Assembly (NCBI RefSeq): GCF_900187505.1
Contig: NZ_FYDL01000004.1
Location: 195,359 to 259,358 of the forward strand
Direction: 5' to 3'
DNA from: Pseudomonas sp. Irchel s3h17
Lineage (GTDB): Bacteria > Pseudomonadota > Gammaproteobacteria > Pseudomonadales > Pseudomonadaceae
DNA length: 64,000 nt
Below the pieces are notes generated by a model. The model had not been told where the DNA came from, ran no database searches, and saw nothing but the letters and a program-made list of their open reading frames with translations. Shown in pieces: positions 3,442 to 7,072 of the stretch. Each line of letters begins with the position of its first letter. Within the stretch, counting starts at the first letter, position 1. A program made the position numbers and the translations under genes.

Positions 3442-3732
3442 GGGTGACCTCTGCTTGCCAGAACACTATTAAGGAAGAATCCACCCGTCTTTTTGTAATG
3501 ATTGGCGTGGATAAAACTGCATGGGCAGCAGCCGATTGTAGCAACGCCTCCCCTCGAGAACACAAGCTGGCAAATGCGCTCGGTAACTGCATTATTTTGT
3601 GGTAGGGTTCGCGCCCGCAAAAATCCGCCCCAGGCTATTTCCCAGGGTAAAAAACAGTGACAAACGGTCTACCCCAGCAAGGTCGCGGCCTACACGACGA
3701 TCGACCGTTTCATACACATTTTACGCACAGCT

Positions 3733-3741
3733 TTATCCACA
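3733..3741 (+). promoter_or_regulatory. DnaA box upstream of nrdA
   Basis: TTATCCACA, a perfect consensus DnaA box, lies 445 bases before the nrdA start codon and just upstream of the presumed promoter. DnaA is known to control nrdAB in E. coli through such boxes. A single box in the nrdA promoter region fits regulation rather than a replication origin. Confidence 0.55.
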
Positions 3742-3750
3742 GGTAGTACG

Positions 3751-3780
3751 TTGCAATCACCCCCTAAAACGCATTATCTT
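3751..3780 (+). promoter_or_regulatory. Candidate nrdA promoter
   Basis: TTGCAA (3751-3756) and TATCTT (3775-3780) are 18 bases apart and form a modest sigma-70 type promoter. The -10 lies inside the first NrdR-like box, as expected for a repressor site. If real, transcription starts near 3787 and nrdA has a leader of about 390 bases. Confidence 0.4.
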
Positions 3781-3815
3781 GTAGCTCAAGTTCAAAAAAT
3801 CCCTAGATGTAGGGT
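3769..3815 (+). promoter_or_regulatory. Pair of NrdR-box-like sites
   Basis: CATTATCTTG (3772-3781) and CTAGATGTAG (3803-3812) each match 8 of 10 positions of the core CWATATATWG of the NrdR box. Their starts are 31 bases apart, three helical turns, which is the spacing known for paired NrdR boxes. NrdR is the nucleotide-sensing repressor of ribonucleotide reductase genes. Position and spacing support the call; the sequence matches alone would be weak. Confidence 0.55.
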
Positions 3816-4145
3816 TTCGAGCTGAAAACCAAACACAAATCAGACAAGAAACTCAAGTGCTTTTCTTGCATGTTTTTGGTTGAACCAAACGCTTTTTCAG
3901 AAGCCCAAACCGCTCCCGCGGATGGCGACCGTTTTCCAGCTCAAAACAGCGAAAACGGTACGGGTGTTGCAGTCATTTACTGTCACCCAAACGGAATCCG
4001 GTTTTCAGCCCCTGGCTTGAAACCAAAGACTTCGGCATGGAAGCGGCGCACGACAGCCCCTTCCTACTGTCCCGAAGTTGTTATGTCCGGCGCTTGCCGG
4101 TTGTAGTGCTTCAGGACGGAACGGTGGGCACCGTGATGGTGCCCA
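3813..4145 (+). promoter_or_regulatory. Hairpin-rich 5' leader of nrdA
   Basis: This stretch between the NrdR-like boxes and the nrdA ribosome site is packed with inverted repeats: 3813-3817/3826-3830; 3845-3851/3862-3868; 3875-3889 (15-bp odd palindrome TTTGGTTGAACCAAA); 3928-3936/3951-3959 (9 bp perfect); 3962-3966/3984-3988 enclosing 3970-3973/3979-3982; 4029-4035/4072-4078 enclosing 4052-4056/4067-4071; 4087-4091/4096-4100; and 4125-4132/4138-4145 (8 bp perfect, 5-base loop) ending 18 bases before the GGAG site. The last stem competes with 4121-4125/4130-4134. There is no convincing open reading frame. A cis-acting RNA is possible; I know of no named family that it matches. Confidence 0.45.
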
Positions 4146-4177
4146 AACAAACATAGAGAATGTGGAGACACCCCCCC

Positions 4178-7072
<2,895 letters not shown>

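Follow-up and report, generated by a model that had tools for sequence, protein, structure and literature searches.

The window, by which we mean the whole 64,000-nucleotide stretch of Pseudomonas sp. Irchel s3h17 DNA analysed here, carries nrdA, the gene for the large subunit of class Ia ribonucleotide reductase, as an open reading frame at 4178–7072. Features lie on the plus strand unless stated otherwise. The N-terminal 266 amino acids of NrdA found a match in 119 out of 119 genomes of the genus. A ribosome-binding GGAG is located at 4164–4167, with the ATG 10 nt downstream. A second in-frame ATG at 4160 overlaps this GGAG, and the start regions of 80 named relatives are split between ATGTGGAG (53/80) and ACGTGGAG (27/80); for these reasons the start of nrdA was taken as 4178. 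The upstream regions compared number 199: the window, 80 named species (all Pseudomonas), and 118 more genomes of the genus, whose assignment to Pseudomonas is inferred from named loci. Six genome pairs in this set share the same leader, and 192 of the 198 leaders are therefore distinct.

Predicted promoter and extent of the nrdA leader

The sequence TATCTTGTA is present in 198 out of 199 upstream regions, mostly about 400 nt upstream of the ATG. In all 198 leaders holding it, a TTG is found upstream of TATCTT, at a spacing of 17 nt (133 leaders) or 18 nt (65 leaders). The window has TTGCAA at 3751–3756 and TATCTT at 3775–3780, separated by 18 nt, and we predict the nrdA promoter at 3751–3780 from this conserved spacing. 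A scan for the strict sigma-70 consensus promoter gave no match anywhere in 3450–4300; thus, the promoter call rests on conservation. Judging from the promoter position, transcription of nrdA probably begins near 3787. Given the promoter elements and the ATG at 4178, the leader would run from about 3787 to 4177, a length of ~390 nt, and because the promoter elements recur in 198 of 198 leaders, its whole 3' domain is expected to lie inside the transcript. An earlier note on this DNA had proposed a structured nrdA leader beginning at 3813. The structured leader stands, while its start is probably near 3787 instead.

Upstream of the promoter lies TTATCCACA (3733–3741), which we take to be a perfect DnaA box; of the 198 leaders, 197 have the same sequence no more than 80 nt before TATCTT. 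Two presumed NrdR boxes, assigned with the consensus as we know it, are predicted over the promoter with their centres 31 bp apart, the arrangement of an NrdR-regulated promoter. Box 1 (3769–3784) overlaps the −10 hexamer, and box 2, TCCCTAGATGTAGGGT (3800–3815), has a position weight matrix score of 17.3. A box 30–39 bp past box 1 was found in all 215 leaders scanned (158 + 20 + 20 + 17), where at least one leader counted among the 158 of type A, G131, belongs to type B; the corrected number of type A leaders, the type of the window, is 157.

Predicted helices and pseudoknot of the leader

The segment 3813–4182 folds with −134.2 kcal/mol (z −4.51), and none of 100 dinucleotide shuffles folds as low. 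The leader at 3784–4177 has a folding z of −4.62, and in 13 chosen species the leaders have z values between −0.95 and −5.18, 12 of the 13 being below −2. The many inverted repeats reported earlier for 3813–4145 were recovered in a search of 3700–4180. When folded from its likely start, the leader is predicted to form a chain of local hairpins, not the long-range domain seen in the 3813–4182 fold.

Covariation was evaluated with a custom script, not with R-scape: parsimony changes were replayed without pairing on a FastTree tree, and E-values were obtained from 60 to 300 null alignments and windows of 4–7 stacked pairs, with values that vary with window length. For single pairs on the whole leader, the best E was 0.10 with the G statistic and 0.17 and 0.18 with the pair score; such tests are underpowered, and helix windows of 4–7 pairs were therefore used. 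An initial consensus fold, computed from 122 leaders, was set aside because misaligned loops blurred it. For the 3' domain, three alignments were used: an unguided one of 124 type A sequences, aligned without structure; A1, with 32 representatives of less than 88% identity taken from the 124; and the model-guided A2, built from 100 sources that we chose among the 157 type A leaders, all 100 of which matched and 95 of which are distinct. The A2 counts for P1, P2, P3, P7, and H8 lean toward the model that built the alignment, while those for PK and the alternative helix do not. Compensatory change is present across Pseudomonas, and so the objection foreseen by the earlier note, that a lack of covariation would speak against a structured leader, does not hold.

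In the 5' part, hairpin H1 (3827–3881; arms 3827–3833/3875–3881 and, inside them, 3845–3851/3862–3868) comes from the minimum-energy fold, and has a mean z of −1.58 in 68 regex-matched leaders but −0.4 in the window. It is followed by H2 (CCGC/GCGG, 3910–3921), which is seen in the fold; by H3 (3928–3959), an inverted repeat with perfect 9-bp arms and a mean z of −1.98 in 152 regex-matched leaders; and by H4 (GGGTG...CACCC, 3962–3988), again from the fold, with a mean z of −2.46 in 132 regex-matched leaders. No helix of 3810–3992, the part that includes H1–H4, reached an E below 0.2, the best value being 0.25 on realigned segments. The stems earlier read in 3827–3988 are thus present in the fold and have negative mean z values across species, but the alignment used gives them no covariation support. 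Hairpin H5 (4000–4009/4015–4024) was called on covariation. With six-pair windows, none of 60 nulls reached it in 122 fluorescens-like leaders, and a separate realignment gave E 0.007; with four-pair windows, E was only 0.10 and 0.32 on two alignments. The long-range stem 3813–3830/4000–4024 of the minimum-energy fold was rejected, as the local hairpin H5 covaries instead.

The last third of the leader (4027–4149) is a genus-restricted RNA predicted to fold into a conserved pseudoknot. On A2, 96.9% of 3,025 cells hold standard pairs in the 95 distinct sequences. Double changes occupy 158 cells, compared with 33.0 in shuffles, and affect 21 of 32 pairs, compared with 9.8. Sliding the partner by one column lowers pairing from 96.9% to 56.2 or 46.2%. 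On A1, 89.5% of cells are paired overall (P1 98.2%, PK 96.9%, H8 96.1%, and P2 81.0%), with P3, there counted with a third pair, weak at 61.5%.

Stem P1 (4029–4035/4072–4078), which surrounds P2 and P3, was called on covariation. It is 99.4% paired in the 95 distinct sequences, and two of its pairs show double changes from G-C to A-U; these changes fall mostly within one group of 11 sequences and may represent few events. On A2, windows of 5, 6, and 7 pairs gave P1 an E of 0.040, 0.013, and 0.010, respectively; on the unguided alignment, E was 0.11 (6 pairs). Stems P2 (4039–4043/4060–4064) and P3 (4045–4046/4057–4058), also called on covariation and together spanning 4039–4064, are 94.5% and 98.9% paired on A2. 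Double changes occur at each P2 pair, and none of 300 nulls reached P2 with five-pair windows on A2 (E 0.000).

The pseudoknot helix PK is formed by CTGTCC (4067–4072) and GGACGG (4114–4119). Its pairs at 4067–4071 are 98.5% paired, although PK lies outside the alignment model, and include double changes. With six-pair windows, PK was reached by 0 of 200 nulls on the unguided alignment and by 0 of 300 on A2; five-pair windows gave E 0.11–0.13, and seven-pair windows, in which the seventh pair is a mismatch, gave 0.21. Since P1 and PK cross, the predicted structure is an H-type pseudoknot whose two helices adjoin each other on one strand, and the high pairing of both helices and the double changes found in each are consistent with it.

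Between the two PK strands, hairpin P7 (4087–4091/4096–4100) has marginal covariation support. Its four-pair main helix is 93.1% paired on A2 with double changes at all four pairs; E is 0.083, and pairing is 65% in 17 putida-like sequences. PK is joined to H8 by an unpaired AACGG (4120–4124), each base of which is at least 95% conserved in the 95 distinct sequences. Over the whole domain, mean conservation is lower at unpaired than at paired positions (0.74 and 0.89), and only 9 of 59 unpaired positions are at least 95% conserved.

Hairpin H8 (4125–4132/4138–4145) closes the series. It is 97.5% paired on A2, with double changes at five of its eight pairs; six-pair windows gave E 0.000 (0 of 200 and 0 of 300 nulls), and shorter windows gave 0.015–0.025. 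Covariation thus backs a hairpin that had been read from the window's letters, but it does not stand directly before the ribosome site as claimed, since 18 nt separate it from the GGAG at 4164–4167. The stem set of that first reading included H8 and missed both P1 and the crossing helix 4067–4072/4114–4119. Nor is a switch-like end upheld, in which 4121–4134 would compete with 4125–4145: the window could form the competitor, but no more than 49 of 95 distinct relatives could do so, compared with 88 of 95 for the H8 core.

Because base 4072 is able to pair in either P1 or PK, strand exchange may take the place of coexistence of the two helices. Pairing counts point to an alternative helix (4074–4078/4108–4112) that extends PK and is exclusive with P1. 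Among 72 fluorescens-like sequences, of which 67 are distinct, it is paired at 99%; the 17 putida-like sequences give 52%, and the 11 of a third group give 84%. PK is paired at 100%, 98%, and 93% in the same groups, which makes the pseudoknot the better conserved of the two forms. Strand exchange may be an addition in the fluorescens-like lineage. As a genus-wide switch, the exchange at 4074–4078/4108–4112 was rejected on its 52% pairing in putida-like species. In conclusion, sequence comparison establishes the predicted promoter position and the predicted helices P1, P2, PK, H8, and H5.

Occurrence of the 3' domain and leaders of other Pseudomonadaceae

At the gathering threshold, no Rfam 15 family matches anywhere in the window, in agreement with the earlier note, which knew of no described element that fits. 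A permissive Rfam search of 3700–4250 returned just two microRNA matches, both on the opposite strand and far below threshold (E 2.1 and 2.6). The covariance model of the domain, R1, has one match in the window's own genome, located before nrdA (150 of 1,319 first-look candidates were scored). Under strict filters, which lose weak matches, R1 matched in 142 out of 199 genomes of the genus and in 2 out of 194 genomes of a sample of the order, both belonging to this genus. Nucleotide searches of phage and plasmid collections gave no match to the 3' domain. Among type B, short, and odd leaders, R1 recognized 1 out of 30, a divergent type A leader, and P. aeruginosa-like leaders were not recognized. 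Second R1 matches in two genomes (G119 and G129) were discarded as informative extra copies, being partial and next to a resolvase-like gene. These partial copies (L217 4754–4863, that is G129:C8:13753–13862, and L218 580–689 in G119:C72) lie beside a 187-amino-acid resolvase-like open reading frame on an apparently mobile contig.

Short leaders (at most 330 nt) make up 20 of the 198. Sixteen of them (15 distinct) are without the 3' domain and share one common junction, ...CACTCGCAATCAAATATAGAACGTGGAG, with sequence kept to about H4; the other four differ. The 11 short leaders among the 80 named species all fall inside one branch of 21 rows, with five changes on the tree, at least three of them on well-supported branches. 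These leaders, of ~240 nt and with a single junction, are patchy in that branch of P. fluorescens relatives (L074, L089, L091, L092, L094, L095, L097, L098, L099, L105, and L109). The pattern fits a lost allele that may have spread by recombination. As the domain is absent from the short leaders of this branch, it is dispensable there.

When the same fold was sought in type B and family leaders, no helix had an E below 0.38, the best being 0.39; the 26 sequences were 14 of the 21 type B leaders and 12 of the 20 from the family, after we excluded atypical ones. At the P1/P2 place, leaders of these groups (L199, L219, L222, and others) hold a recurrent GCC-AGGRA-GGC hairpin within GACT...AGTC. 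Found by eye and with RNAalifold, it resembles an RsmA/CsrA site, and the covariation test gave it no support. One type B leader (L210, from G076) is interrupted by an insert of ~120–150 nt that appears REP-like by eye.

Leaders of other Pseudomonadaceae carry NrdR boxes at a distance from the promoter. Our NrdR matrix was built from 43 sites in 20 family leaders, and it had no match scoring at least 9 in 281,864 coding bases. None of the 21 leaders of the divergent type B entered the matrix. All 21 have an upstream box, at −181 to −195 from box 1, and 20 of the 21 have a downstream box within the leader, at +212 to +225, with 0 of 126 in control windows. Of the family leaders, 17 contain the promoter motif and are part of the training set; an upstream box is present in 16 of these 17 (−180 to −214) and a downstream box in 16 of 17 (+220 to +234), with 0 of 102 in controls. 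Type A leaders had no distal box upstream (0/157) or downstream (0/157; controls 1/942), and the same was true of short leaders (0/20 and 0/20; controls 0/102). No distal box above threshold was found in the window, the best candidate (3587–3602) scoring 2.2. The offsets cluster about one helical turn apart (−193/−182 and +213/+223), and the outer boxes are placed roughly symmetrically, each ~207 bp from the midpoint between the two promoter boxes (examples are L196, L222, L223, and L219). This arrangement suggests that the distal boxes, ~190 bp on either side of the promoter pair, are NrdR looping operators. The accessible parts of the NrdR literature searched, including PMC12176259 and PMC12051234, contain no report of distal looping boxes.

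Proposed function of the leader and comparison with known systems

We think it fairly probable, though far from settled, that the ~390-nt nrdAB leader is a cis-acting RNA with a 3' H-type pseudoknot, which acts after initiation through a protein or a ligand. Under such a mechanism, the nrdAB transcript would start near 3787 under NrdR control and would carry a ~390-nt untranslated cis-acting RNA leader. The module at 4027–4149 would fold as an H-type pseudoknot: P1 would enclose P2/P3, and the bases immediately preceding the second strand of P1 would pair with 4114–4119. The P1 and PK helices could stack end to end, P7 would be placed in the long loop, and H8 would close the module. Its effect would be exerted post-initiation, on ribosome loading or on nrdAB mRNA decay, via a protein or ligand holding the pseudoknot. 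In fluorescens-like species, the unheld fold might be exchanged for a longer hairpin, 4067–4078/4108–4119. The conserved unpaired AACGG is the best candidate contact site, and the leader probably tunes the amount of enzyme made.

We also put forward, as a tentative idea that is less than probable, that this genus-specific pseudoknotted RNA senses the nucleotide pool or a growth-state protein, and sets the translation or lifetime of nrdAB mRNA by moving 4072–4078 between P1 and 4067–4078/4108–4119. If true, a sensing pseudoknot would be a second, RNA-level control below NrdR, in a lineage without its relatives' long-range NrdR operators. Ribonucleotide reductase is essential, and accounts of its control in bacteria have so far centred on NrdR and further DNA-binding proteins. 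With a conserved pseudoknot leader in most sampled genomes of the genus (142 out of 199), the supply of deoxynucleotides would also be controlled at the RNA level. The species without the 3' domain provide a natural comparison, and R1 is a new covariance model that can be used in annotation.

The leader had first been described as having the architecture of a riboswitch or attenuator. A conserved aptamer-like fold is indeed present in a 5' leader, itself placed by promoter conservation. No intrinsic terminator, sought as a G+C stem with a T run, was found on the plus strand in 3450–4300, where the minus strand has four. When the 3' domain was folded with either P1 or the long hairpin forced, using energies without pseudoknots, accessibility of the ribosome site was 0.50–0.52 either way, and that of the start-codon stretch was 0.61 with P1 and 0.53 with the long hairpin. 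Since neither a terminator nor an occluded ribosome site coupled to the fold was found as an expression platform, the riboswitch or attenuator label is unproven. The missing coding-strand terminator speaks against attenuation through intrinsic termination, and the lack of a conserved small open reading frame against attenuation through a leader peptide. What survives of the description is a structured nrdA RNA with compensatory change, and not the switch-like end, a terminator, or coupling to the ribosome site.

Among the alternatives, taken in falling order of probability, the one that survives best, although we hold it unlikely, is a stabilizing or standby leader that senses nothing: the hairpin chain would shield a long-lived essential mRNA from RNases, or offer ribosomes a landing place. 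The local hairpins do form a chain, with H8 last and an A-rich spacer leading up to the GGAG, and one group lost the domain while keeping the gene. This explanation alone, however, accounts for neither the covarying crossing helix nor the conserved unpaired AACGG.

The occurrence of GGA motifs in conserved places makes RsmA/RsmE a serious rival, which we rank next and likewise regard as improbable. The protein would bind the GGA of the P2 arm, ACGGAAC (4116–4122), and the GGAG, and repress until titrated by RsmX/Y/Z. Of the 95 distinct sequences, 68 have CANGGANG, presumably the RsmE consensus; ANGGA is found within the first 40 nt in 87, and A[CT]GGAA[CT]GG in 72. Many other Pseudomonadaceae leaders, examined by eye and with RNAalifold, hold GCC-AGGRA-GGC at the same place. 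Yet GGA motifs are common, the GGA of the P2 arm is paired in the covarying fold, the ribosome-site GGA of the window has no A at −2, and the 26 type B and family leaders gave no helix below E 0.38. In the accessible part of the literature on nrdA, RsmA, and Pseudomonas, what is listed concerns transcription factor binding.

That the pseudoknot is a metabolite riboswitch, binding a nucleotide or deoxynucleotide and adjusting nrdAB translation, is more doubtful still. It agrees with the compact pseudoknot, in which some unpaired bases are conserved, with a match in the window's own genome solely before nrdA, and with the use of a P1 strand by the alternative helix in fluorescens-like species. 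The alternative helix is, however, poorly kept in putida-like species (52%), no terminator was found, hardly any change at the ribosome site is predicted, and 95% conservation is reached at just 9 of 59 unpaired positions. Known riboswitch aptamers are usually widespread, whereas the domain was found in one genus only in the sample of the order.

We consider it very improbable that the signal is confined to DNA, with the inverted repeats serving as operators of NrdR or other proteins and the length of the leader reflecting DNA looping. Other Pseudomonadaceae do have an NrdR box inside the leader, ~191 bp past box 2, but such a box is found in none of the 157 type A leaders, and helices that cross, show compensatory change, and often contain G-U pairs are a signature of RNA. 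A leader-peptide attenuator, in which the 78-codon frame at 3870–4106 would be translated and control nrdA, is hardly credible: the frame is open in the window, but no more than 10 of 95 fluorescens-like leaders contain an ATG frame of at least 60 codons that ends at TTGTAG.

The preferred reading, a cis-acting leader with a 3' pseudoknot, can be compared with other systems. SAM-II and preQ1 riboswitches, as we understand them, are H-type pseudoknots and resemble the nrdA domain in having two crossing stems able to stack, a likeness in how they work only; the nrdA domain has longer loops and extra hairpins, and neither a ligand nor an expression platform was identified here. Among the matches listed, represented by titles and abstract openings with subscription papers and supplements outside reach, none describes a structured RNA before Pseudomonas nrdA. 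The evidence presented here is like that for structured RNA candidates from comparative genomics, namely a conserved fold and compensatory change; in the available part of that work (PMC2864571) candidates are described, while the window matches no Rfam 15 family at threshold. In P. aeruginosa, 115 mapped 5' UTRs of more than 200 nt were proposed to hide unknown cis-regulatory RNAs (PMC3460626); unlike for the nrdA leader here, no structure is given there, and "nrd" is absent from the main text. The P. aeruginosa nrdA gene itself has a long 5' UTR, predicted with BPROM, and control by AlgR has been reported (PMC5738425). It is thus the same gene with a long untranslated leader; the accessible text gives no RNA structure or leader function, and R1 does not match P. 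aeruginosa-like leaders. Control of P. aeruginosa nrdA by NrdR is reported as well (PMC4409342, as far as its accessible text goes). In E. coli, nrdAB has a third NrdR box, which, like the distal boxes of other Pseudomonadaceae, is extra to the promoter pair; according to the accessible part of the report, it lies 15 bp from another promoter box (PMC12176259), whereas the extra boxes of other Pseudomonadaceae are ~190 bp off, on both sides.
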